This document shows, piece by piece, positions 1 to 28,002 of a stretch of 64,000 bases of DNA. This DNA is from Leptospiraceae bacterium (lineage in GTDB: Bacteria; Spirochaetota; Leptospiria; Turneriellales; Turneriellaceae): NCBI GenBank assembly GCA_025055765.1, contig JANWWS010000007.1, positions 62,001-126,000 on the forward strand, given 5' to 3'. Within the stretch, counting starts at the first letter, position 1, and every line of letters begins with the position of its first letter. The notes under the pieces are model-generated. The model worked only from the letters and a program-made list of their open reading frames with translations. It had not been told where the DNA came from and ran no database searches. The position numbers and the translations under genes are program-made.

Positions 1-1
1 G

Positions 2-604
2 TTTGTAGGAAAACCACTAGAACTTGACGAAGAAACTGTCTCTACTCTCGTAGATGCACCAGCTGTACGAGAACTATTTGTCACTATTATACATGATTCC
101 ATCATAGAGTTTAACCGCAAATTCAATCCCTTTTTTGGTGGGCTCACAGCTCTTGGTCTTGATAAACAAATACGCGAGTTTATTACCCCTTTTATGGGAC
201 ATATCACGGAACTTGCTAAAAATTTTATTTTAAATCCAGCCAATCGAGCCAAAATCGGCGAGTTTCAAGAAATTGCCTTTGATCTCGTTGTGCGCCAAAA
301 ACCTGCTTTTTTTTATAATTTGAGTAGCAAGGAGGGAGACGAGCTTTTTATTCAAGCCCTGCATGAAACCTTTCGCGATCAAGAACTAAAGGAATTCGTA
401 TTAGAGATTTTCCGTAAATATCGTTTAGATGTAGAAGCAAAGCATGGCCAAAAGAGCCTAAAAGACTACTTAGCGGAAAATGGGATCCATCCGACCCCAC
501 CCGTAATAAGCGATGAGGAACTGGACTTTTATCTAAAAAAAGCAGCCGAGAGCCCTACCCTTTTGTGGTTTTTGCAAGAAGAATTTGAACTATACCAAAA
601 ATGA
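2..604 (+). CDS. Hypothetical protein, 5' end outside the window
   Basis: The frame is open from the left edge to TGA at 602-604, so about 200 C-terminal residues are visible and the true start lies upstream; the ATG at 194 is internal. The product is soluble-looking and helix-rich, with no cysteine, no signal peptide and no membrane segment in the visible part. It has a hydrophobic FNPFFGGLTALG segment and an acidic tail. I do not recognise the family. The stop overlaps the next start as ATGA, so it is probably translationally coupled to the lipoprotein gene that follows. Confidence 0.75.
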   Translation, partial: FVGKPLELDEETVSTLVDAPAVRELFVTIIHDSIIEFNRKFNPFFGGLTALGLDKQIREFITPFMGHITELAKNFILNPANRAKIGEFQEIAFDLVVRQKPAFFYNLSSKEGDELFIQALHETFRDQELKEFVLEIFRKYRLDVEAKHGQKSLKDYLAENGIHPTPPVISDEELDFYLKKAAESPTLLWFLQEEFELYQK

Positions 605-12828: not shown

Positions 12829-13422
12829 ATGGATGTCTCTGTCGACAAATTAGTGGAAAAACTCTACGAAGAGGGGGTTCGTCGCGCCCAGGATGAAGCG
12901 CGTGAAATTTTACAACAAGCAGAACAAAAGGCCCAGCAAATAATGGAAGAAGCCAAACGTGAATCTATGCAAATCCGGCAGGAGGCAGAAAAAAAAGCAA
13001 AAAGAATTTATGAAGAGCTGCAGGGTGAGTTAAAGATGGCCATTCATACAGCCATAGCAGAACTACGGGAAAAGTTGCGCTATGAGATCTTGCGCCAAAG
13101 TGTCGAAGAGCCCGTTAGGCAAGATATGCTTAAAGATAGAGAATTCCTAAAAAAGGCCATCTTAATTGTTCTTGAAAAAGTAGAAGGAGACTTTGAGCTA
13201 AGAGTACCAGAAGATTTAGCAGAAGATTTAAGAAACTACTTTAAATCAGATATTGGCAAGATTTTTCAAAAAATGGAAATTAAAGTTGAGGGCCAAAGCA
13301 AGGGCTTCACTATTGAAGCCAAAGAGAGGGGTTATGCACTTGAATTTAGTGACGACACTTTAATTGCTTTTTTTGCCAAATATTTAAAAGAAGCCTCGGC
13401 TTCTTATTTAAAGTACCCATAG
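12829..13422 (+). CDS. ntpE: V-type ATPase subunit E (peripheral stalk)
   Basis: A 197-residue protein. Its N-terminal half is a long Glu/Lys/Arg/Gln-rich coiled coil (QQAEQKAQQIMEEAKRESMQ) and its C-terminal half is a mixed globular domain, the architecture of V/A-ATPase subunit E. It forms the outer stalk that holds the A/B hexamer. It opens the operon E-DUF2764-A-B-D-I-K, and its stop overlaps the next start (TAGTG). No separate subunit G/H gene is visible, so E may work with a partner encoded elsewhere. Confidence 0.88.
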   Translation: MDVSVDKLVEKLYEEGVRRAQDEAREILQQAEQKAQQIMEEAKRESMQIRQEAEKKAKRIYEELQGELKMAIHTAIAELREKLRYEILRQSVEEPVRQDMLKDREFLKKAILIVLEKVEGDFELRVPEDLAEDLRNYFKSDIGKIFQKMEIKVEGQSKGFTIEAKERGYALEFSDDTLIAFFAKYLKEASASYLKYP

Positions 13423-14240
13423 TGGCACGTTACATTTACCTTATCTCAGGGCTACCCGAGATATCTACAGAATCAGCTCGGCTTTTGCCCAAACTTTTAG
13501 AGGAATGGGAAGAAGAACTCAAAAAAGAAGATCTTGAAGATCTGCGCTTTCTTATTTTTCGCAACGACAATAAAAATCTCTTAAAGTTTTTGCGGGCAAA
13601 AGATGGAATTTCTCTTTTAGATCGCGTATCTATGCATGAGCCATGTGTCTTTAGCTTTGTAGAAATCGAAAACATCTACATTGAGGAATACGACGGTGAA
13701 AAGAAAGTACCTGAATATTGGCTTTTCTTTCTTGAAGAAGAAAAAAAGAAAAAGCTTAGCTTGCAGGAACGGGAAAGACTTCTTGTAGAGCTTTATTATG
13801 AGGCAGGTATATCTCATAGAAATCCTCTTGTGCGAAAAATCTTTCTTTTTAAAAGGGACATGAAAAACCTCTTGCTTGCCATAAATGCCTACCGGCACAA
13901 TCTCAGGCTTGAGAATATCGTAGTTGGCAACTATGATCTACCCGAAATTTTGCTTCGCTCCCAAGAGTCGTACAAGGGACTTGCCAAGGACTTTCCTTTC
14001 CTTTCACTATGGGAGAAACTATTGGATGAAAAACGACTTGTTGAGTTAGAACAGGAAATTGACCTGGTGCTTGTAGAATATATCGACTCCGTGCGCAACC
14101 CAGATAACTTCTCCTTTGATTATCTCATACGCTACTACATTGATTTGGCACAGCGATACCGGTGGCTTGAACTTTCGCCTCGTGTAGGCAAAATAGCTCT
14201 TGAGGAGCTAACAGAGCACATCTTGCAAAAAGCTTTATGA
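13422..14240 (+). CDS. DUF2764 protein of the V-ATPase operon
   Basis: A 272-residue, mostly helical, acidic and lysine-rich protein with no signal peptide or membrane segment. Its N-terminus (RYIYLISGLPEI) and a position between subunits E and A match the DUF2764 family, which in my knowledge accompanies V-ATPases of Bacteroidetes and spirochaetes. Subunit C (the d-type rotor-to-ring adaptor) is otherwise missing here, so this protein may take its place. That is inference. It starts with GTG overlapping the subunit E stop and ends overlapping subunit A (ATGA). Confidence 0.8.
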   Translation: MARYIYLISGLPEISTESARLLPKLLEEWEEELKKEDLEDLRFLIFRNDNKNLLKFLRAKDGISLLDRVSMHEPCVFSFVEIENIYIEEYDGEKKVPEYWLFFLEEEKKKKLSLQERERLLVELYYEAGISHRNPLVRKIFLFKRDMKNLLLAINAYRHNLRLENIVVGNYDLPEILLRSQESYKGLAKDFPFLSLWEKLLDEKRLVELEQEIDLVLVEYIDSVRNPDNFSFDYLIRYYIDLAQRYRWLELSPRVGKIALEELTEHILQKAL

Positions 14241-16015
14241 ACATGTACGAAAGCCAAACAACAGGACGGCTCAGCGCGATTATAAGTAACCTAGTAAATA
14301 TTGAACTAGAAGGTCCTGCACGCCAAAACGAAATATGTTTTATTGAACATGAGGGTCATAGACTCATGGCAGAAGTTATTCGCATAACGGGAAATGTCGC
14401 CCAAGCCCAAGTTTTTGATTCCACACGGGGACTTAAAATAAATACTCCCGTTGTCTTTACAGGTCATATGTTAGAGGCCACCCTAGGCCCTGGCCTATTA
14501 TCAAAAAAATACGATGGCCTTCAAAACGACCTGGAAAAACTACCCGGGCTTTTTCTAGAAAGAGGGACCCACTCATCTCCTTTAGATGAAGACAAAGAAT
14601 ATAACTTCATCCCCCTCGCCAAAGAAGGGGACGTAGTAAGCGCAGGTGATTGGTTAGGTGAGGTTCAGGAAGGATGGATCCCTCATAAGATTATGGTGCC
14701 CTTGACCTTCAAGGGGCAATTCCGTGTTGGGTTTATATCTCCTTCCGCGGTTTTGCGCATTAACGACACGGTAGCGATACTCTTAGACCAGGAAGGCCAA
14801 GAGCATAAGGTTACCATGGTACAACGCTGGCCTGTTAAGAAAGCTTTTTTAGGATATCGAGAAAAAATCCGACCTGATACCATTTTAGAGACAGGAGTAA
14901 GAGCCATAGACACTTTAAATCCCCTACCCGAGGGGGGGACCGGCTTTATCCCTGGTCCCTTTGGCTGTGGCAAGACAGTGTTACAGCACGCCATTAGCAA
15001 GAACGCCAATGCCGATCTTATTGTCCTTGTCGCTTGCGGAGAAAGAGCCAATGAGGTAGTAGAAATTTTTAAGACCTTTCCAGAGCTAGAAGACACGCGA
15101 ACAGGTAGAAAACTCATTGAGCGAACCACCATTGTTTGCAATACCTCGAATATGCCGGTAGCAGCCCGGGAAGCATCGGTTTATACTGGGATGACCATTG
15201 CCGAATATTATCGCTCTATGGGCTTAAAGGTACTCTTACTTGCCGATTCCACCTCCCGGTGGGCACAGGCACTTCGCGAAATGTCGAACCGCCTCGAAGA
15301 GCTTCCTGGGCCTGATGCCTTTCCGATGGATCTTACTGCCACTATTACGGCTTTCTATGCAAGAGCAGGGAAAGTTATTTTAAAAAATGGCAGAACCGGC
15401 TCTGTCACTTTTCTAGGCACCGTATCCCCAGCTGGTGGCAATTTAAAAGAGCCGGTAACCGAAAGCACCCGCAAGGCAGCTCGCTGTTTTTATGCCCTTT
15501 CTCAAAAACGAGCTGATAGTAAAAGATATCCCGCCATTGATCCCTTAGACTCCTATTCCAAGTATTTAGAGTATGGCGAATTTAGAGAAAAACTCAACGA
15601 CATTATGGCTCCCGGCTGGGCAGAACTTGTGGAAGAAGCAAGGGATATTTTGCGCCAAAGTAGTGAAGCCAGAGAGCAAATTTCTATATTAGGAGATGAC
15701 TCGGTACCCGTAGACTATCATGAAATCTTCTGGAAGGGCGAGCTTATTGATTTTGTTATTTTGCAGCAAGACGCTTTTGATAAAATTGATGCGAACACCC
15801 CTCTGGCACGCCAAGTCTATATGCTACGCTTGGTACTTGAGATTTGTCGCCAAAATTTCCCCTTTAGCCATTTTGAGGATGTAAGCTCCTTCTTTAAAAA
15901 GCTTATACATCTTTTAAAGCAAATGAATTATTCTGCTTTTGCCTCCGAGACTTTTCAACGCTATGAAAAAGAAGTAAGAGAACTAATTGACGAGGCCACC
16001 AAGGGAAGGGGGTGA
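14237..16015 (+). CDS. ntpA: V-type ATPase catalytic subunit A
   Basis: A 592-residue catalytic subunit. The P-loop GPFGCGKT is at about 240-247, followed by ACGERANEVVE, a Walker B region (LLLADSTSRWAQALRE) and SPAGGN. The large non-homologous insert that separates A from F-type beta subunits lies before the P-loop (about 110-190). It hydrolyses or makes ATP in the A3B3 head in the cytoplasm. It overlaps DUF2764 upstream and subunit B downstream, which supports a single coupled operon. Confidence 0.97.
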   Translation: MNMYESQTTGRLSAIISNLVNIELEGPARQNEICFIEHEGHRLMAEVIRITGNVAQAQVFDSTRGLKINTPVVFTGHMLEATLGPGLLSKKYDGLQNDLEKLPGLFLERGTHSSPLDEDKEYNFIPLAKEGDVVSAGDWLGEVQEGWIPHKIMVPLTFKGQFRVGFISPSAVLRINDTVAILLDQEGQEHKVTMVQRWPVKKAFLGYREKIRPDTILETGVRAIDTLNPLPEGGTGFIPGPFGCGKTVLQHAISKNANADLIVLVACGERANEVVEIFKTFPELEDTRTGRKLIERTTIVCNTSNMPVAAREASVYTGMTIAEYYRSMGLKVLLLADSTSRWAQALREMSNRLEELPGPDAFPMDLTATITAFYARAGKVILKNGRTGSVTFLGTVSPAGGNLKEPVTESTRKAARCFYALSQKRADSKRYPAIDPLDSYSKYLEYGEFREKLNDIMAPGWAELVEEARDILRQSSEAREQISILGDDSVPVDYHEIFWKGELIDFVILQQDAFDKIDANTPLARQVYMLRLVLEICRQNFPFSHFEDVSSFFKKLIHLLKQMNYSAFASETFQRYEKEVRELIDEATKGRG

Positions 16016-17331
16016 AGGTGCAAAAGGTCTATACTCGGCTAACCAAAATTACTAAAGCCACAGTAAGCCTCTTGGCTGAGGGAGTTAGCTATGAGGAACT
16101 TGCCATTATTGATGGCCGCCTAGCCCAGGTAATTAAGATTGTGGGACAAGAGGTTAGCCTACAGGTCTTTTCTGGCACGGAAGGGCTCAGCACAAAGGCA
16201 CGTGTTTTCTTCTTAGGCCATCCTCCACGTCTTAAGGTAAGCGAGGAGCTGGCTGGTCGCTATTTTAATGCTTATGGTGAACCCCTTGATGGCAAACCGC
16301 CTGTAGAGGGAGATTACGTAGAACTCGGTGGACCGACCATCAATCCCGCTCGGCGCAGCCAACCCTCGGAGCTTATTGCTACAGGAATTGCTGGCATCGA
16401 TCTCAACAATACCCTAGTAACAGGGCAGAAAATTCCCTTTTTTGCAAACCCAGATGAGCCTTACAACCAGGTGATGGCCACGGTAGCCCTAAGGGCCCAA
16501 TCTGATAAGATCATTTTAGGGGGGATGGGACTTTCGCACGATGACTACCTTTACTATAAAAAGGTTTTTCAACATGCAGGGGCAGAACATCGCATCGTGG
16601 TTTTCTTAAATACTACAGAGGATCCTCCCGTGGAGCGGCTCTTAATTCCTGATATGTGTCTCAGCGCTGCCGAGTACTTTGCTGTAAAAAAGCACGAGAA
16701 AGTATTAGTGCTTTTAACTGACATGACCCTCTATGCTGATGCCCTTGCCATTGTCTCCAGTAAAATGGAACAAATACCATCTAAAGACTCGATGCCAGGA
16801 TCACTTTACAGTGACCTTGCCCGCATTTATGAAAGAGCTGTGCAACTGCCCACAGGAGGTTCTATAACTATTATTGCGGTAACCACACTTAATGACGGGG
16901 ATATCACCCATGCCATTCCTGATAATACGGGCTACATCACCGAGGGACAGCTTTTTTTACGCCGTGACACCACCGTGGGTAAGGTTATTGTAGATCCATT
17001 TCGCTCTCTTTCCCGCCTCAAACAAATTGTTATTGGCAAGAAAACACGGGAAGATCACCCCCAGGTTATGAATGCCCTTGTAAGACTCTTTGCTGATGCC
17101 GCCAATGCCAAAACAAAGCTGGAAAATGGTTTTGAGCTGACTCGCTACGACCGTAGAGCCCTTGAATTTGCTCGAGAGTATTCCCGGGAGCTTTTAGCTA
17201 TTGATGTCAACTTGAATATTGAAGCCATGCTTAACAAAGGGTGGGAACTTATGGCAAAATATTTCGACAAATCCGAAACAGGCATTAGGCAGGATCTCAT
17301 TGATAAATATTGGCCCGTAAAATCTCCATGA
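16012..17331 (+). CDS. ntpB: V-type ATPase non-catalytic subunit B
   Basis: A 439-residue non-catalytic nucleotide-binding subunit that alternates with A in the head. The expected phrases are present: YFNAYGEPLDG, GIAGIDLNNTLVTGQKIP, and a degenerate P-loop region without GKT, as usual for B. LLTDMTLYADALAIVSSKMEQIP and GSITIIAVTTLNDGDITHAIPDNTGYI-type stretches follow. The start is GTG at 16012, inside the end of subunit A. The stop TGA overlaps the ATG of subunit D. Confidence 0.97.
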   Translation: MKVQKVYTRLTKITKATVSLLAEGVSYEELAIIDGRLAQVIKIVGQEVSLQVFSGTEGLSTKARVFFLGHPPRLKVSEELAGRYFNAYGEPLDGKPPVEGDYVELGGPTINPARRSQPSELIATGIAGIDLNNTLVTGQKIPFFANPDEPYNQVMATVALRAQSDKIILGGMGLSHDDYLYYKKVFQHAGAEHRIVVFLNTTEDPPVERLLIPDMCLSAAEYFAVKKHEKVLVLLTDMTLYADALAIVSSKMEQIPSKDSMPGSLYSDLARIYERAVQLPTGGSITIIAVTTLNDGDITHAIPDNTGYITEGQLFLRRDTTVGKVIVDPFRSLSRLKQIVIGKKTREDHPQVMNALVRLFADAANAKTKLENGFELTRYDRRALEFAREYSRELLAIDVNLNIEAMLNKGWELMAKYFDKSETGIRQDLIDKYWPVKSP

Positions 17332-17906
17332 AATACCAATTTAACAAGATATCTCTCCAAAAACTGGAAAAGGACCTAGAAATACGTCTAAGAGCTCTAC
17401 CAACATTAAAAGCAAAAGAAACTGCCCTACGCCAAGAGGTAAAAAAAGCCCAACAAAGGCTAAGCGAAATTGAAAATGAACTTGCCATGCTCAATAAAAC
17501 TATGGAGCAATTTTTAAGTCTGTGGGCCGAGTATCCAGATCTCTTGAGTATCTCCCATGTAGCGTTAATAGAAAAAAACATTGCCGGCATAAAGATATTT
17601 CAGGTAAGTCATGTTGAATTTCAAATTGTGCGCGCAGGACTTTTTCACCAAAGGGCCTGGGTGGTCGAAGGCACCGAACTCCTAAAAAAAAGGCTAAAAC
17701 TTGTCTTAGAAAGCAGGGTTTGGAAAAAAAATCTCGAATTACTCACACAAGCCCGTAGAAAGACAACTCAAAAAGTAAATCTCTACGAAAAAGTGCAGAT
17801 CCCCGAGTTTCAAAATGCCATTAGGCGCATAAAGGGCTTTTTAGAAGATGTGGAAAACCTCTCCCGTGCCTCGCAAAAAATCATCAAAAAAAGGAGACCC
17901 GCATGA
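17328..17906 (+). CDS. ntpD: V-type ATPase subunit D (central stalk)
   Basis: A subunit of about 192 residues formed almost entirely of two long amphipathic helices that make the rotating shaft through the A/B head (N-terminal KYQFNKISLQKLEKDLEIR, C-terminal NAIRRIKGFLEDVENLSRASQKI). I use the ATG at 17328, which overlaps the subunit B stop as ATGA; a TTG at 17310 is in frame but would overlap B further. The stop overlaps subunit I. No subunit F, the usual small partner of D, is encoded in the cluster. Confidence 0.92.
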   Translation: MKYQFNKISLQKLEKDLEIRLRALPTLKAKETALRQEVKKAQQRLSEIENELAMLNKTMEQFLSLWAEYPDLLSISHVALIEKNIAGIKIFQVSHVEFQIVRAGLFHQRAWVVEGTELLKKRLKLVLESRVWKKNLELLTQARRKTTQKVNLYEKVQIPEFQNAIRRIKGFLEDVENLSRASQKIIKKRRPA

Positions 17907-19789
17907 TCGCCGCCATGCGCCAAATAGTCTTTTTTGTACCCGAAAAAGAAAAGAAGCTCTTTTTAAGAAAACTACAATCCCTCGGTATAGTGGATGTAGA
18001 TTGGCAGAGTTTACCTACCCGAAACCAAACTTTGCTACAAAAGCAAGAAGAACTCCTTGCCTTGTGGAAGAAAATCCGCAAATTTCGCAATCAAAAACAA
18101 AATTTGCCTAGAATTAAGCTTGTCGCATCTTTCTTGCTCTTACATGAATTTCTTTCCAAAGAATGGGATACTTATGAAAAACTCCTTAAGGCTCTCAGTG
18201 AGCTTCAAGAAGAGAGAAAAGAAGCTGCTCTCTGGAAAAACACAGATCCCGAAAAATACTTTTCCCTAGCCAGGCATGGTCTTTATCTTTTTCTTTATTC
18301 GGGATCATATCGCTTCTTTAAGAAGTATCGTTTTGATAAAATCAAGACATTGCTAATTCGCAGAGAAAAAGACCATGTCTATTTTCTTGTCTTTTCTGAA
18401 GAAAAAAATCCCCCTAAAATACCCTTTGTACTACACCGCTTCCCCTCGCGCTCTCTAGCTGAGATAGAAAATGATATAGTGTTTCTAGAAGAAAAAATAA
18501 AAGAAAAAGAGGCCCTTTTTGCTTACGTAAGTCAACAAGAAGAACTTTTAGCTCGCTCTTTAGCTGCTCTTCACAACCAAACCCAAAGGGAATTAACCCT
18601 CGCTAAAATGCAGCATGTCTTAGAAAACCGTGTTATTATACTCCGTGGTTACTTTCCCAAAGAAAAAGAGCAAAGCATTAGAGAGTTTTGTGCCCAAAAC
18701 GAATTTGCCTATGCTATTTTACCAGCAAGCAAGGATGCTCCCGTGCTTTTAAAAAACCCCCCTCCCCTTGGGCTTTTTGAGAACATAACTCGCCTTTTTT
18801 CTCTCCCCTCTTATCAAGAGGTGGATCCCACTCCTTTTTTTGCTCCCTTCTTTACCGTTTTTTTTGGTCTTGCTTTAGCTGATGCTGGCTACGGCCTTCT
18901 CCTTATCATAGCCTCGCTTGTCTTGCTTCGCCATAAGGACTGGAAAACCATAGGCAAGCTTGGCTTTATCTTAGGTTCTGCCACCTTAGTAGCAGGAATA
19001 CTCTTAAACTCATTTTTCGGTAAGAATTTATTTACCTTAGGCAGCCAGGCCGGTATTTTTCCTCACGGAGAAAAAATAGCTCTCTTTGCCGCCTATACGG
19101 TACAAGGTAAGACGGTATATCCGGCCTTGTCGCTGGCTCTACTTCTAGGCGTTCTCCAGATAAGCGTCGCTCTTTTTTTGCAAGCTTTTAACGAGGCCCA
19201 CAGAAAGGGGTTGGCTTTTAGTATAAGGCCTATTTCTTTTTTTATAATTTTGCTATCTCTATTTGTCTTAGCTACTCATTCTCGTTTTCTCTCTTTGGGA
19301 CTTGACCCTGAACTCACAGTGGGACCTTGGAGAGTCGGCTACTGGCTTAGCTCAATACCCGCAGACTTGGCATATTTCCTCTTTGGTGTTGCTTTGCTGG
19401 CCTTTCTTTTCTTTCATAATCCTTCCCAAAGCATCTTGAAGAGACCTCTTGCTGCTTTGTGGGAACTCTATCAGCTCGCAACTGGTTTTCTAGGAGATTT
19501 TCTTTCTTACATAAGGCTTTTTGCCCTGGCTCTTTCTGGGGGACTTTTGGGTAACGCCTTCAATCAAATTGCCTTTATGCTACAGGAAAGCCCTGTTTGG
19601 GGAGTTTCTTTATCTGTTCTTGTACTTGTCGTAGGCCATGCTTTGAATTTTGCCCTCTCCCTTCTAGGAGCCGTGGTGCATCCTCTTAGGCTTACTTTTG
19701 TGGAATTTTATAAAAATCTAGGTTTTCACGGTGGCGGAAGGGCTTACGAACCTTTCCGCAGAATAAGCTATCCTATAACACAGGAGTAG
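17903..19789 (+). CDS. ntpI: V-type ATPase membrane subunit I (a-type stator)
   Basis: A 628-residue stator subunit. The N-terminal half is cytoplasmic and coiled-coil-rich, and the C-terminal half (from about 315) has seven or more membrane segments. FGLALADAGYGLLLI and the late helix LGDFLSYIRLFALALSGG are family hallmarks; the Arg in SYIRLF is the ion-channel arginine facing the rotor. It ends in the typical VEFYKNLGFHGGGRAYEPF motif. It guides the coupling ion across the membrane with subunit K, whose gene follows after two bases. Confidence 0.95.
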   Translation: MIAAMRQIVFFVPEKEKKLFLRKLQSLGIVDVDWQSLPTRNQTLLQKQEELLALWKKIRKFRNQKQNLPRIKLVASFLLLHEFLSKEWDTYEKLLKALSELQEERKEAALWKNTDPEKYFSLARHGLYLFLYSGSYRFFKKYRFDKIKTLLIRREKDHVYFLVFSEEKNPPKIPFVLHRFPSRSLAEIENDIVFLEEKIKEKEALFAYVSQQEELLARSLAALHNQTQRELTLAKMQHVLENRVIILRGYFPKEKEQSIREFCAQNEFAYAILPASKDAPVLLKNPPPLGLFENITRLFSLPSYQEVDPTPFFAPFFTVFFGLALADAGYGLLLIIASLVLLRHKDWKTIGKLGFILGSATLVAGILLNSFFGKNLFTLGSQAGIFPHGEKIALFAAYTVQGKTVYPALSLALLLGVLQISVALFLQAFNEAHRKGLAFSIRPISFFIILLSLFVLATHSRFLSLGLDPELTVGPWRVGYWLSSIPADLAYFLFGVALLAFLFFHNPSQSILKRPLAALWELYQLATGFLGDFLSYIRLFALALSGGLLGNAFNQIAFMLQESPVWGVSLSVLVLVVGHALNFALSLLGAVVHPLRLTFVEFYKNLGFHGGGRAYEPFRRISYPITQE

Positions 19790-19791
19790 TT

Positions 19792-20241
19792 ATGGAGACA
19801 ATTGTGGCAAATGTTGGTTTAGCGCTTATGATTGGGCTTTCTGGAGGTGGTTCGGCCATTGGCCTTTCCATGGGTGGTTCTGCTGTTTTAGGCATGGTAA
19901 AGCGCCGACCCGAGGCTTTCGGCAATGGCCTGGTGCTCTCAGCTCTTCCTGCAACCCAGGGCCTTTATGGCTTTGTTGCCTTTATACTCTATACCGCCGA
20001 GTTACGTAGCGACCTTAGCCTCTTTGATGCAAGTGTTATTTTAGGTGCAGGTCTCATGGTGGGTCTAAGCTGCCTTATCTCCGCCATACAACAGGGGCAT
20101 GTCTGCGCTAACGGTATTTCAGCACTAGCAAGTGGTCACGATACCTTTGGCAAAACCATGATCCTGGCAGCTTTTCCTGAGTTTTATGCAATCCTTTCGC
20201 TCGTGGCTGCCATCCTCATGAAGGATTTGTTGGCCCGTTAA
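19792..20241 (+). CDS. ntpK: V-type ATPase c-ring subunit K with sodium-site residues
   Basis: A 149-residue proteolipid with two hairpins (four membrane helices) that forms the rotor ring. The ion-binding carboxylate is E130 (AFPEFYAIL) in helix 4. L52, T55, Q56, Q101 and E130 match the Enterococcus hirae NtpK sodium ligands L61, T64, Q65, Q110 and E139 with identical spacing (3, 1, 45, 29). I therefore infer sodium coupling. The first hairpin has Gln in place of a carboxylate, as in NtpK. The stop abuts that of the convergent ahcY gene with no gap and no terminator. Confidence 0.95.
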   Translation: METIVANVGLALMIGLSGGGSAIGLSMGGSAVLGMVKRRPEAFGNGLVLSALPATQGLYGFVAFILYTAELRSDLSLFDASVILGAGLMVGLSCLISAIQQGHVCANGISALASGHDTFGKTMILAAFPEFYAILSLVAAILMKDLLAR

Positions 20242-21678
<1,437 letters not shown>

Positions 21679-22604: not shown

Positions 22605-24362
22605 TTACCTTCGGTATATTGGTCTGGCATGATAGGTAGTGTGCAGTAATTGGTGGGCTTTTTCGGAAAGCGGCTTTTCTAAAAAAGAGCGGTAAAGTTC
22701 TTGTACCTCCTCATTTTCGTGGGAGCAGCGAACTTTTTGACTGCGGTCATCTTGGTAGAGCCCCTCTATGCGCTTCTTGCGCACTTCATTGGTAATACCG
22801 TATGGCTGCCCACCCCCACCAATACAGCCACCTGGACATGCCATCACTTCGATAAAATGGTATAAGATCTCACCTCTGGCTTTGGCTTCACGAACTCTCT
22901 CTAAAACATCGCTTACATGGCCTAAACCATGGGCGACAGCTACCCTTATTTCTTTACCGTTAAAGTTCAAGCTTGCTTCTTTCACCCCCTTTAATCCGCG
23001 GATTTCTGCAAATTCAAGGCGAGGCATTTTGCTACCGGTAAGAAAAAACTGAGCCGTGCGCAAGGCAGCTTCCATAACCCCCCCTGTATAGCCAAAGGCT
23101 GTTCCTGCACCCGAGTATTCGCCTAAAATAGAATCCGCCTTTTCCGGAGGTAGTTTTGCAAAATCAATACCCGACTGCCTAATCATGCGGGCTAATTCCC
23201 TTGTTGTGAGAGCAATATCAACATCTTTATAGCCCGAAGCGTACATTTCATGGCTACGTGTTAATTCATATTTTTTTGCTGTGCATGGCATAATTGAGAT
23301 CACCTTAATACGGGAAGGGTCAATGTTTTTCTTAGCGCTGTAGTAAGTTTTCGCAAGAACACCTAGGATTTGCTGGGGGGACTTTGTAGAGGAAAAATGA
23401 GGGATGAAATCCGGATACATTTTTTCCATAAAATCAACCCAAGAAGGGCAGCATGAGGTAATGAGGGGCAGTATTCCCTTGTCATGCACAAATCGCTCCA
23501 CAAACTCACTGGCCTCCTCCATAATCGTAACATCTGCCGCAAAGTTCGTGTCAAAAATAGCGTCAAATCCTAGCCGCCTCAATACCGCATATATTTGACC
23601 AGTAAGATTTGTCCCAGGCGGAAAACCAAATTCCTCCCCCACGGTAACCCTTACAGAAGGAGCAATTTGGACTACCACATGATAATCGGGATTATGGAGG
23701 AGTTGCCAAACCTCGGCCGTTTCGTCGAGTTCAATAATAGCACCTGTTGGACAATGAGCGGAACACTGGCCACAGCGCACACAGGGAGCTTCGGCAAGTT
23801 CAATATCTCCCGCCGGAGCCATACGGGTGTTCATCCCTCGATTTAAGAAAGAAAGGGCCCATACCCCCTGCATTTCTTGGCAGACATAGACACAGCGGCC
23901 ACATTTAATACATTTATCAAATTCAAAGATAAGTGACCCTGTAGATCTATCCACGGGCAAATTAGGCAAAAAAGGAGCAAAAGCGGACTCCCGTATAGCA
24001 AAATCAGAGGCTAGCTGTTGCAACTCACAGGATTGGTTGCGCCCACAGGTAAGGCAGCTATTTGGATGGGTTGAAAGAATTAGCTCCAATACAGTTTTTC
24101 TCACATTCACAATTTCCTCATCGTGAGTTATAATTTCCATACCCTCCTCAACAGGTGTGGTACAAGCTCGCGGTAGACTTGCCATGCCCTTAACACGCAC
24201 AATACAAATACCGCAGGCGCCTGTTGCTACAAGATCGGGATGCTTACATAAAGTTGGGATTTTGAGGTAAATTTGTTGGGCAGCCTCTAGAATGGTGCTA
24301 CCCTCAACAACTTCGCAGGGTATGCCATTTATGGTACAGTGGATATATTTTTCTTGGCCCAT
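22605..24362 (-). CDS. hydA: [FeFe] hydrogenase catalytic subunit HydA
   Basis: A 585-residue [FeFe] hydrogenase. Domains in order: N-terminal [2Fe-2S] ferredoxin (C39, C50, C53, C67); His-ligated [4Fe-4S] (HPNSCLTCGRNQSC); two [4Fe-4S] sites (CIKCGRCVYVCQ, CVRCGQCSAHCP); H-cluster motifs TSCCPSW (L1), MPCTAKKYE (L2) and EVMACPGGCIGGGGQP (L3). The C-terminal small-subunit-like tail is fused. It is therefore a complete enzyme of the trimeric HydABC or HndD type, oxidising or evolving H2 with electrons passed from HydB. Its 5' end overlaps hydB by 34 bases. Maturases HydE, HydF and HydG are not in the window. Confidence 0.97.
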   Translation of the reverse strand: MGQEKYIHCTINGIPCEVVEGSTILEAAQQIYLKIPTLCKHPDLVATGACGICIVRVKGMASLPRACTTPVEEGMEIITHDEEIVNVRKTVLELILSTHPNSCLTCGRNQSCELQQLASDFAIRESAFAPFLPNLPVDRSTGSLIFEFDKCIKCGRCVYVCQEMQGVWALSFLNRGMNTRMAPAGDIELAEAPCVRCGQCSAHCPTGAIIELDETAEVWQLLHNPDYHVVVQIAPSVRVTVGEEFGFPPGTNLTGQIYAVLRRLGFDAIFDTNFAADVTIMEEASEFVERFVHDKGILPLITSCCPSWVDFMEKMYPDFIPHFSSTKSPQQILGVLAKTYYSAKKNIDPSRIKVISIMPCTAKKYELTRSHEMYASGYKDVDIALTTRELARMIRQSGIDFAKLPPEKADSILGEYSGAGTAFGYTGGVMEAALRTAQFFLTGSKMPRLEFAEIRGLKGVKEASLNFNGKEIRVAVAHGLGHVSDVLERVREAKARGEILYHFIEVMACPGGCIGGGGQPYGITNEVRKKRIEGLYQDDRSQKVRCSHENEEVQELYRSFLEKPLSEKAHQLLHTTYHARPIYRR

Positions 24363-26176
24363 AGCTTGTAATCCTCGGGAAAGAAATGCAAAGAAGAAAA
24401 GATAGGATTGCAGGCTGCCTTACCTAGCCCACACAGAGAGGCAAGTTTCATGGCATAAGCAATTCGCTTAATTTTCGCTATTTGCCTTTCCGCATCTGCC
24501 CCGGCCAAAAGCTCTTGGTATAAATGGCGCAACTGAAAACCACCAATGCGGCAAGGCGCACACTTGCCGCAAGACTCATCTACATTAAAGTTTAAATAAA
24601 AAAGCATAAACTCAGCCAAATTTACACTCTCATCAAGTACAATGAGCCCACCTGAGCCAATAATGGAACCAATAGCTAGAAAATCTTCGTAAGTGAGGGG
24701 GATGTCTAAAAGAGACGCTGGTACAAATCCACCAGAAGGTCCCCCTGTCTGTACGGCTTTCAACTGTTTGCCTGCAGGAAGTCCCCCACATATATCATAG
24801 ATTAGGATTTTTAAAGGCATACCCATGGGAACCTCCACAAGTTGAGTTTTGGCGATCTGGCCTGAAACAGCAAAGATTTTGGTACCTAAGGATTTGCCCT
24901 TGCCTATCGTAGAAAAATAATCCCCTCCCCTCAAAATAATTTCGGGTATGGTGGCCAGGGTTTCTACATTGTTGATGCAAGTAGGTTTGCCATAGAGCCC
25001 CCTTTGGCTTGGATATGGTGGACGCGGAACAGGAGAGCCTCTTTTGCCCTCGAGGGAAGCTATAAGGGCAGTCTCTTCTCCACAAACATAGGCGCCAGCA
25101 CCAAGGCGCACCTTGACATCAAAGGAAAAACCGCTGCCTAAAATATTCTTGCCCAGAAAACCATACTGCCGTGCTTCTTCCACAGCTCGTCGTATCCTCT
25201 GTGTGGCAAGAGGGTATTCGGCACGGATGTAAAAATAGCCTTGTTCCGCCCCTATCGCATAACCAGCTAATATGAGGCCCTCTAAGACCCGATGAGGGTC
25301 ACTTTCTAGCAGAGAGCGGTCCATAAAAGCACCGGGGTCTCCCTCATCGGCGTTGCATATAACATACTTTGGGAAATTTTTTTCCTGGCGGGTAAGCTTC
25401 CACTTAAGAGCAGTGGGGTAACCAGCTCCTCCCCGGCCCCTAAGACCACTTTTTTCAACTTCCGAGATCACCGCCTCCGGGCTAAGCTTTTTTAAAGAAG
25501 TCTGAAGGGCATCATAGCCCCCAAGCTGCAAAGCTTCCTCGATACTCTCTGCAGACATGCGGCCGCAGTTTTTACTTACGAGGCGCAACTGTAGAGGCTC
25601 GGAAAATCTTTTGTGGATAGCCAAACCTTGACCCTGCGAGAGCAACCCAAAGAGCTCTGGCAATTCCTCTATGCTAAAGCCAGCATATACCTCGCTTTGG
25701 GGGAAAATCTCGATAGCAAAACCTCTATTATAAAAACCAAAGTCTAGGGCCCAGGCATATTGCCCTGGCGAAAAAAAGCGTGATAGAAGGGAGAGAACAT
25801 AGGCTCGGTTTTTATCTTGCAAGGGAAGTGAAGTATCACTCACCAAAATGTGGGTGATAGCACCCCCCCTCTTCTTCATAAAAGTTCTGCCCCCAAGGAT
25901 ACATCCGCCTGAGCGAAAAAACTCTTCACGGGGGAACAAACCATGCTGAAAAAAATCTTCGAGAAGATAAGCTATGTTATGTGCATTAAGTTTGCCAAAA
26001 ATAACCGCAGGGAGGTGTTCGGCTTCGACCTCAATTTGAGGATCGGCATAAGATAGCCCGTTGGTACCGACCTTTATGATTTGCCAGGTTTTGCCCAGTT
26101 CTCTTTGCAGGGCTTCCCCCACGTAAGCTGCCCCAGCGGCTATGGCGTTTGAGTCAAAATTAAGCCTTATCTTCAC
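24329..26176 (-). CDS. hydB: Hydrogenase NADH-binding subunit HydB, cluster-poor variant
   Basis: A 615-residue NuoF/HydB-like subunit. NADH and FMN motifs are intact (GLRGRGGAGYPTALKW, CNADEGDPGAFMDR, GAYVCGEETALIASLEG), and the [4Fe-4S] ligands are ESCGKCAPC plus SLCGLG. The N-terminal thioredoxin-like domain aligns with the [2Fe-2S] domain of HydB, but its cysteines are gone (FDSNAIAAGA, GTNGLSYADP). A second related, cysteine-less module seems to follow (about 96-205). The C-terminal two-cluster ferredoxin domain of bifurcating HydB is absent; the protein stops soon after SLCGLGKAACNP. I infer NADH-dependent hydrogenase activity without ferredoxin. Confidence 0.93.
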   Translation of the reverse strand: MKIRLNFDSNAIAAGAAYVGEALQRELGKTWQIIKVGTNGLSYADPQIEVEAEHLPAVIFGKLNAHNIAYLLEDFFQHGLFPREEFFRSGGCILGGRTFMKKRGGAITHILVSDTSLPLQDKNRAYVLSLLSRFFSPGQYAWALDFGFYNRGFAIEIFPQSEVYAGFSIEELPELFGLLSQGQGLAIHKRFSEPLQLRLVSKNCGRMSAESIEEALQLGGYDALQTSLKKLSPEAVISEVEKSGLRGRGGAGYPTALKWKLTRQEKNFPKYVICNADEGDPGAFMDRSLLESDPHRVLEGLILAGYAIGAEQGYFYIRAEYPLATQRIRRAVEEARQYGFLGKNILGSGFSFDVKVRLGAGAYVCGEETALIASLEGKRGSPVPRPPYPSQRGLYGKPTCINNVETLATIPEIILRGGDYFSTIGKGKSLGTKIFAVSGQIAKTQLVEVPMGMPLKILIYDICGGLPAGKQLKAVQTGGPSGGFVPASLLDIPLTYEDFLAIGSIIGSGGLIVLDESVNLAEFMLFYLNFNVDESCGKCAPCRIGGFQLRHLYQELLAGADAERQIAKIKRIAYAMKLASLCGLGKAACNPIFSSLHFFPEDYKLWAKKNISTVP

Positions 26177-26654
26177 AGCTGATAACCTTCTCTAATTCTT
26201 GCTGAAAAATCTCTGCATTTAAATAAGGGTGTAATTGCCCATCGATATAGGCGAGGGGGGCCAGAGCGCAACAACCAATGCAACGTACTTCTTCTATAGA
26301 CACCTCTCTTTGTTTTTCTTCGGGTAGATTAGTTTTGAACTCGTGCGCCATTTGTAGCAATTTCTCGCTTTGGAAAAGCCAACAGGTAGTACCGTTGCAG
26401 ACAGTAATGAGATGCCTCCCTGGTGGCTTTGTGCGAAAATAATGGTAAAAGGTAATAACTTCGTATATTCGAGCCATAGGGATACGAAAGCGCTCTGCTA
26501 AAAAAGCTGCCACCTCCCGCGGGATATAACCAAAATGGTTCTCTACCGCATGAAGAGCCAAAATTAGGTTGTCGTTTTCCACCTGAAGTCCATCCACAAA
26601 TTTTTTCATTTCGGGATGGCTTACAGCGGCTGGATTTAAATATATACGTTGCAT
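26160..26654 (-). CDS. hydC: Hydrogenase [2Fe-2S] subunit HydC (NuoE-like)
   Basis: A NuoE/HydC-type subunit of about 164 residues with a helical N-terminus and a thioredoxin-like [2Fe-2S] domain. The ligands C-x4-C (CNGTTC) and C-x3-C (CIGCC) are all present, in contrast to the decayed site of HydB. It would pass electrons between the FMN of HydB and HydA. I use the ATG at 26654, with AGGTG about ten bases upstream; ten further residues would be read from 26684. It is the first gene of the operon hydC-hydB-hydA and overlaps hydB by 17 bases. Confidence 0.93.
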   Translation of the reverse strand: MQRIYLNPAAVSHPEMKKFVDGLQVENDNLILALHAVENHFGYIPREVAAFLAERFRIPMARIYEVITFYHYFRTKPPGRHLITVCNGTTCWLFQSEKLLQMAHEFKTNLPEEKQREVSIEEVRCIGCCALAPLAYIDGQLHPYLNAEIFQQELEKVISCEDKA

Positions 26655-26700
26655 CAAAAAGCACCTTTTTCTTGACCGCAACAAAAGAACAAAGCTATTT

Positions 26701-26775: not shown

Positions 26776-28002
26776 ATGAGCCTTAAAGGCAGCGACACAC
26801 CTTATGAGGAGAGCAATTATTACAGCATATTAAATCTATTTTATTTTGTGAAAGCCAAATTTCTTCCTGTATTTCTTGACTATGCAGGTTTTCGCTACAA
26901 AGGTTTTGTTGAAGAAATCCAAAATGACTTTATTCGGGTTATCATTGAGGACTTTCAAGAAACCCCCGAAAGGCGGGCTGTACTTAGCTTTGAAGCTTTA
27001 AACCGCTACTATCAGGCATCTCTTCTGATTTTACGCAGCAATGAGCAAGGTGTTTTCTTACCTTTTCCGGAAAAGATATACTACTATGCTAGGCGCCGCC
27101 ATGTGAGGCTACGCTTTGACGATCTTTTCATGCGATTTATTATACTTTATTCCCCCATTTTGCAAAACCGAGCTGAAGAGAAGTACATGGAAGCGCGCTA
27201 CAGTGAATTTCTCTCAGAGGTTCTTCAAGATGAACCTTCCCTGAAGGTTGTCTATCAAATGTTTGTGCGTGAAATCCAAAAAATATCTCGTAACTTTGAA
27301 ATAAAAATATTACAGGGCCGAGAAGAAAAAGAACTCTCCCTTTTTGAGAGGTTACTTTTAAAAACAGGCAAAACGATTTTTATTGAGGATGTCGCCCGCT
27401 TGGGATCTTATATTGACAAAATCCCTTCAAATAGAGTTATCAACCTCCATTCTTACTATGAGGAACTTGTATCCCAAATGGGCGAATACAGGGCCATCTT
27501 GCAGATGGAGAAAATAAAAAAAGAAGATCTTCAGGAGTTCTTAGTCTCATATATGATGGTTCCCTTTACTCTTTTTGACAATATCTTAGGTTATGTTCGG
27601 CTAGAAACAAATCAATTTGATAAATACTTTTTAGCGCTTAGCCAGGCGGAAGAGCTTAGCATGGTAGCCGATCTATTCTCCTATGGTATCACGAAAATCC
27701 GCATTAGGCGCTCCCATTTTGATGTTAGCTCTGTGCAAACCAGGGTGGTCAACATCTCACTTAGTGGACTACTTATGGAATTTTCGGACGCAGTACTCTA
27801 TCGTTACCTACAGAAGAACCGGCGCATTAAGATGCTTATCCCCCTTGAGGACAGGGAACTCGAAATTAGCGGTGAGATTGTTCGCTACTTTGAAAAAGAT
27901 AACCTCTACTACGCAGGGGTTCTTTTTTTTAAAAGTAGGCCGGATGACCTATACCACCTAGAACGCTATATTTATGAAAACCTACACTACCAGTTTTACT
28001 AG
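26776..28002 (+). CDS. PilZ-like (YcgR/DUF1577-type) protein
   Basis: A 408-residue cytoplasmic protein. The N-terminal half has beta-rich segments (YKGFVEEIQNDFIRVIIEDF) like a YcgR-N domain, and the C-terminal region carries a PilZ-like motif VVNISLSGLLMEF (N-x-S-x-x-G) and then EISGEIVRYF. A clear RxxxR at the correct distance before it is not obvious; RIRRSHFD is the nearest candidate. Cyclic di-GMP binding is therefore uncertain. The overall layout resembles the second PilZ-like protein at 53659-54789. It is divergent from the hydrogenase operon and its stop shares a CTAG with the convergent dtd stop. Confidence 0.65.
   Translation: MSLKGSDTPYEESNYYSILNLFYFVKAKFLPVFLDYAGFRYKGFVEEIQNDFIRVIIEDFQETPERRAVLSFEALNRYYQASLLILRSNEQGVFLPFPEKIYYYARRRHVRLRFDDLFMRFIILYSPILQNRAEEKYMEARYSEFLSEVLQDEPSLKVVYQMFVREIQKISRNFEIKILQGREEKELSLFERLLLKTGKTIFIEDVARLGSYIDKIPSNRVINLHSYYEELVSQMGEYRAILQMEKIKKEDLQEFLVSYMMVPFTLFDNILGYVRLETNQFDKYFLALSQAEELSMVADLFSYGITKIRIRRSHFDVSSVQTRVVNISLSGLLMEFSDAVLYRYLQKNRRIKMLIPLEDRELEISGEIVRYFEKDNLYYAGVLFFKSRPDDLYHLERYIYENLHYQFY

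Follow-up and report, generated by a model that had tools for sequence, protein, structure and literature searches.

A predicted Na+-coupled V-type ATPase encoded by a seven-gene operon in a Leptospiraceae bacterium whose energy conservation looks proton-based

The window analysed here, a 64,000-nucleotide stretch of DNA from a Leptospiraceae bacterium, carries a seven-gene operon for a V-type ATPase whose rotor subunit, K, has residues identical to those of the complete Na+-binding set of NtpK, the rotor subunit of Enterococcus hirae. The explanation that best accounts for the evidence as a whole, and to which we assign a probability of about 0.78, is that the enzyme works with a Na+-coupled K rotor and that its main role is ATP-driven Na+ export. 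Na+ coupling of the V-ATPase is likely, judging from sequence comparisons; its Na+ specificity, the size of its ring and the direction in which it runs we infer. Ligand sets predict a coupling ion and do not prove it, and both H+ and Na+ are used by some archaeal c rings that have sites of this kind.

Organization of the operon and the membrane stator

The operon (12829-20241, + strand) lies in a genome of 2.51 Mb, in 50 contigs and 99.4% complete. Its seven genes code, in order, for E, a DUF2764 protein, A, B, D, I and K:

12829..13422, + strand: V-ATPase subunit E (stator stalk), first gene; 197 aa; best NCBIfam match PRK01558 (V-type ATP synthase subunit E), 1.2e-20, below cut-off
13422..14240, + strand: DUF2764 protein, proposed to be subunit C/d and to link the shaft to the K ring as a socket; PF10962, 9.9e-25
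14237..16015, + strand: V-ATPase catalytic subunit A; 592 aa; PRK04192, 9.9e-215, over cut-off
16012..17331, + strand: V-ATPase subunit B; 439 aa; PRK02118, 7.5e-201, over cut-off
17310..17906, + strand: V-ATPase subunit D (central shaft); 198 aa; PF01813, 4.4e-29
17903..19789, + strand: V-ATPase subunit I/a (membrane stator); top PDB match E. hirae NtpI (8wci_P), 8.6e-35
19514..19516, + strand: codon of subunit I R538 (= NtpI R573), placed by alignment
19688..19690, + strand: codon of subunit I R596 (= NtpI R629), placed by alignment
19792..20241, + strand: V-ATPase rotor subunit K; two hairpins, with a single ion site expected

The gene order E-DUF2764-A-B-D-I-K is complete in 59 of 92 relative loci, a total in which some of 12 stretches duplicate another counted contig; the other 33 loci have fewer genes, many of them being ended by the edge of a contig or of the locus. 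Both arginine positions of subunit I, R538 and R596, are occupied by Arg in all 89 aligned rows, a count restricted to subunit I proteins longer than 450 aa, with the window's own row included and several genomes present twice. The end of the operon is adjoined by a convergent ORF (20242-21669), an S-adenosylhomocysteinase by eye, and a DUF1577 plus PilZ protein is encoded at 26776-28002 (+ strand).

Subunit K is in register with the Na+-binding subunit of E. hirae

The K reading frame encodes 149 aa from an ATG start, and Pfam ATP-synt_C covers both of its hairpins (4.6e-30); an error of strand was considered and rejected, the minus strand of 19792-20241 being interrupted by stops. By phmmer, residues 8-143 of K aligned without a gap on residues 17-152 of E. 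hirae NtpK (2bl2_A; E = 2.9e-21), with 57 of the 136 residues (42%) identical. According to the accessible part of PMC2359735, the residues with a role in ion binding by NtpK are Glu139, Gln110, Thr64, Gln65, Leu61 (through its backbone) and Tyr68. All six are identical in K, the pairs being L52/L61, T55/T64, Q56/Q65, Q101/Q110, E130/E139 and Y59/Y68, and the corresponding codons are as follows:

19945..19947, + strand: L52 (= NtpK L61, backbone carbonyl ligand), placed by alignment
19951..19953, + strand: A54, which takes the place of the Glu in hairpin 1 and is inactive (Gly in NtpK), placed by alignment of relatives
19954..19959, + strand: T55 and Q56 (= NtpK T64 and Q65), placed by alignment
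19966..19968, + strand: Y59 (= NtpK Y68, which stabilises the ion-binding Glu according to the accessible part of PMC2359735), placed by alignment
20092..20094, + strand: Q101 (= NtpK Q110), placed by alignment
20179..20181, + strand: E130 (= NtpK E139), placed by alignment

The AlphaFold2 model of K, a bundle of four helices with a mean pLDDT of 97.5, was obtained from alignment A1 (51 K sequences picked for diversity) and superposed on 2bl2_A over 147 aligned residues (1..147 on 10..156) with an rmsd of 1.5 Å. The register of +9 between K and NtpK is thus the same in the sequence alignment and in the predicted structure. The initial annotation had equated L52, T55, Q56, Q101 and E130 with NtpK L61, T64, Q65, Q110 and E139, and this is borne out by the gapless alignment, in which all five are identical and Q101 and E130 show no shift in either sequence or model; the Gln that it had placed in the first hairpin is likewise there, as Gln56. 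The two hairpins of K share a single carboxylate, E130 in hairpin 2, and as the Glu-equivalent of hairpin 1 is Ala54, one ion site is expected per four-helix K. The fold itself was dropped as evidence for the ion, because proton c subunits superpose on the K model as well as NtpK does (Z 21.3 vs 20.9).

Conservation of the ligand set among relatives of K

If each site matched at the rate seen outside the ligands (52/131), the chance of all five ligands matching would be about 0.01, so that the single K-NtpK pairwise match, at about 1 in 100 by background identity, is modest evidence; the conservation seen in the aligned sequences of relatives is stronger evidence than this match. The K alignment comprised 83 rows, from which three copies of the window gene (K_window, L001 and L002) were excluded, leaving 80 relatives. 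In this set, which is biased toward sequences that keep the ligands because two of the six seeds used in the search for relatives overlap Q101 or E130, the residues Q56, Y59 and E130 are the same in every sequence, position 55 has T in 77 and S in three, and position 101 has Q in 78 and M in two (L043 and L059). Position L52, where the ligand is the backbone, is variable, with L in 62, M in 11, V in 3, A in 2 and P in 2. The relatives with the side-chain ligands are labelled Spirochaetota, Fibrobacterota, Bacteroidales and others, and the nearest named ones are Leptospiraceae MAGs (isolate SKYG32, 83% identity).

That the signature reflects no more than the conservation common to V-type c subunits, and would thus be uninformative on the ion, is a reading that we consider very improbable: it can appeal to the pairwise chance given above and to P53, G57 and P129, which are equally invariant, but human c adopts the same fold although four of the five ligands are gone from it (aligned likewise it reads MIIIE, with only the Glu retained), so the fold does not require the ligand set. 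Conserved ligands point, in our preferred explanation, to a Na+ site.

A class-wide profile search found full-length K in 15 of 48 genomes, the window genome included, matches in three further genomes (G015, G017 and G041; 18 of 48 with any match) being partial, single-hairpin ones that were not counted. The five ligand positions of the full-length K proteins of the class read LTQQE in 14 of the 15 and LTHQE in one (G014; L125 and L155). This last K (L125:1828-2271, and L155), from the same order as the window genome, has His in place of Gln56 with the other ligands kept, and constitutes a natural test of the role of Gln65. Two spirochaete K subunits (L043:6286-6738 and L059:8992-9444) have Met for Gln101, and here a change of coupling ion has possibly taken place. 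Two members of the same order have instead a single-hairpin c with IPETM (L132 and L133, in G015 and G017), from which it follows that a different V/A-type ATPase is present in the order.

The DUF2764 protein as the putative subunit C/d

The product of the second gene belongs to a family, DUF2764 (PF10962), that Pfam describes as 'of unknown function'. Its model and the sequences of its relatives indicate that it is very probably the V-ATPase subunit C/d. The model, with a pLDDT of 92.1, was obtained from alignment A2 (37 DUF2764 sequences, also picked for diversity); against the PDB its top 12 chains were all V-ATPase C/d, matched over residues 1-264 with Z scores of 10.7-13.2, and the next chain dropped to a Z of 4.3. 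Foldseek also ranked C/d first, at an E of only 7.7e-3. As a best Z of about 14 can occur for helical models that have no clear relative, the argument rests on the gap in Z and on the sequence matches of the relatives. Of these, PF01992 (C/AC39) was matched by 24 of the 37 family members at E<=1, the best at 1.3e-11; the window protein alone gave no match to PF01992, and neither did a search of the window genome for subunit C with the same family. The DUF2764 profile (A2) matched Thermus subunit C at 4.4e-4, a value to be read against a noise level of 1.8e-3, at which interferon gamma was matched.

In the accessible part of PMC4814513 the position of the DUF2764 gene is labelled 'C', within the order KIDBACE, and in that of PMC10790697 it is left as of unknown function. 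Its assignment to subunit C would give a role to a family that went without a function in the Bacteroides fragilis study, and makes the question of the missing F testable. Subunit F (PF01990) was not found in the 99.4% complete window genome; in a control, PF01990 gave matches in six of 14 genomes, Thermus among them. Tentatively, and at somewhat less than even odds for the picture in all its parts, we propose a reduced, seven-protein Na+ V-ATPase that would do without F or a second stalk protein, with the DUF2764 protein as the C/d socket, D as the sole shaft and E building the stators on its own, acting as a Na+ exporter in an otherwise proton-run, oxygen-respiring relative of the spirochaetes and having been repeatedly gained or lost in the class.

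Energy machinery of the same genome

The genome contains a complete F1Fo operon (L134), its genes identified by eye and its c subunit by family; this c subunit is, on its sequence, proton-type. Compared with the Na+ c subunit of Ilyobacter (1yce), it has no Gln at Q32, where there is a gap beside Ile/Ala, and it has Gly60, Ala61 and Phe64 at the positions of Ser66, Thr67 and Tyr70. Since this F-type c is devoid of the Ilyobacter Na+ ligands, the proton job is already filled. Also present are complex I genes (the 51-kDa subunit, NADHdh and three antiporter-like subunits) and a heme-copper oxidase cluster, whose neighbours are other oxidase subunits by eye. The M-PPase scores 748 bits with plant proton pumps as the reference, as opposed to 543 with a sodium pump (4av3), and is by sequence closest to the proton pumps, a plant-like H+-PPase. 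Three Na_H_Exchanger-family proteins and three MotA/ExbB matches were recorded, and Rnf and Nqr gave no match in the genome. A candidate for OAD-beta was rejected, as the sole match, at 18.6 bits, was below the cut-off and is an SBF-type transporter; a sodium-run cell was rejected in turn, on the lack of an Rnf/Nqr match and on the nature of this transporter.

From the gene content, energy conservation looks proton-based and the V-ATPase looks like a sodium specialist, which, because of the proton machinery in the same cell, reads as an auxiliary Na+ pump. There is no sign of a large sodium economy, as the searches of the families covered yielded no further primary Na+ pump, and K, being patchy (15/48 class genomes), does not characterise the lineage. 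The initial annotation had gone on from Na+ coupling to a 'sodium-based membrane energetics in this lineage'. The coupling is upheld as likely, on complete, in-register and family-conserved ligands and both subunit I arginines; the lineage-wide claim has to be corrected, in view of the F1Fo enzyme with its proton-type c, complex I, the heme-copper oxidase, the H+-PPase, the lack of an Rnf/Nqr match and the patchy occurrence of K.

The proton-based character of the remaining machinery could also be taken to mean that the enzyme is a proton pump, or promiscuous, and that its Na+-type site is a relic of its ancestry. We regard this reading as unlikely: although some Na+ ligands persist in H+-ATPases (accessible part of PMC2359735), every side-chain ligand is kept in the relatives of K, including Q56, which is absent from the Thermus H+ enzyme, whose c subunit, as read from the alignment, keeps the equivalents of Q110 and T64 and has Leu for Gln65. 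A Na+-coupled enzyme therefore remains the explanation that we favour.

Three genes near the V-ATPase operon (22605-26684, - strand) are NuoE/NuoF-like and [FeFe]-hydrogenase-like by eye, and occur in a genome that also has the heme-copper oxidase. In a relative, a 3-kb contig (L131, G010:C189) encodes a c-type subunit whose helix 1 carries a Gln and whose helix 2 carries Glu-Ser, an arrangement that resembles the Na+ F-type pattern.

Proposed mechanism and direction

In the mechanism that we propose, each K would bind one Na+ between its hairpins, with E130, Q101, Q56 and T55 as side-chain ligands and L52 contributing its carbonyl. A3B3 would rotate the D shaft, the C/d-like DUF2764 socket would transmit this rotation from D to the K ring, and K would exchange Na+ at the interface with subunit I, past R538/R596. 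The likeliest role would be ATP-driven Na+ export beside the proton respiratory chain and the F1Fo synthase, as in E. hirae; in the reverse mode, synthesis of ATP from a sodium gradient would be possible. Export is favoured because a four-helix subunit with a single site points to few ions moved per ATP (the ratio is 10/3 in E. hirae, according to the accessible text of PMC12018189) and because the families searched yielded no other primary Na+ pump.

A reading that shares Na+ coupling with this explanation and differs from it in direction is that the enzyme is chiefly a Na+-driven ATP synthase, used when the proton gradient fails, which we hold to be possible but doubtful. Support would come by analogy from B. 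fragilis, which has the same operon type and the same K residues; according to the accessible part of PMC10790697, its V-ATPase mutants were nearly lost in deoxycholate, and a Na+-driven synthase is proposed there. In addition, the E. hirae V-ATPase, in liposomes, can make ATP at the expense of a sodium motive force (accessible text of PMC12018189). However, B. fragilis has Nqr as a source of the sodium gradient, and no Rnf/Nqr match was obtained in the window genome, whose three Na_H_Exchanger proteins could build such a gradient only by spending protons; one site per four helices, with the low ion:ATP ratio that it would imply, also favours pumping. ATP-driven Na+ export is thus the role that we prefer for the enzyme.

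Comparison with known systems

NtpK of E. hirae (2bl2) has the five ligands and the Tyr in gapless register with those of K and, like K, two hairpins with one Glu, and the NtpI arginines are common to subunit I of the window; a proton F-type enzyme is present in E. hirae as well. The differences are that K, at 42% identity, has a Pro before the Glu (FPE, as against MVE in NtpK), that no F is recognisable in the window genome and that the position of C is occupied by a divergent DUF2764 protein. The V/A-ATPase of Thermus thermophilus, which is proton-coupled, shares the equivalents of Q110 and T64 but has a single-hairpin c with Leu for Gln65; the DUF2764 model also matches Thermus subunit C, and subunit F was matched in the Thermus control genome.

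Closer in organization is the V-type ATPase of B. fragilis (ptos_002482-88), which, in the accessible part of PMC10790697, has seven genes with DUF2764 second, the NtpK ligands and an F1Fo enzyme beside it, and for which the Na+ inference is already published; B. fragilis has Nqr, whereas the window genome, with no Rnf/Nqr match, has complex I and a heme-copper oxidase. The V-ATPase of Chitinispirillum alkaliphilum (CHISP_1230-1236, 'KIDBACE'; accessible part of PMC4814513) also has seven genes, in matching order, and its K Na+ motif was used to infer Na+ export. Unlike the bacterium of the window, however, C. alkaliphilum is a haloalkaliphile that lives by fermentation, has Rnf and oxaloacetate decarboxylase and does not respire.

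The Na+ ligand rule is set out in PMC2359735, which, in its accessible part, has Leptospira spp. encoding F-ATPases only, and the rule has been applied to such seven-gene operons in Fibrobacterota (PMC4814513) and Bacteroidota (PMC10790697), as far as the accessible parts of these sources go. The operon type and the inference of Na+ from the K motif are thus already known, and the window enzyme is a further member. The literature searched, with subscription literature mostly outside it, yielded no experimental ion test of the E-DUF2764-A-B-D-I-K operon type, and the accessible part of PMC13067680 has nothing on V-ATPases. In that of PMC10382590, Na+ transport by the E. hirae V-ATPase is called 'thus-far unique'. 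Whether the coupling ion can be predicted from the ligand rule would become clear from a tractable representative of the second, widespread group to which the window enzyme belongs.
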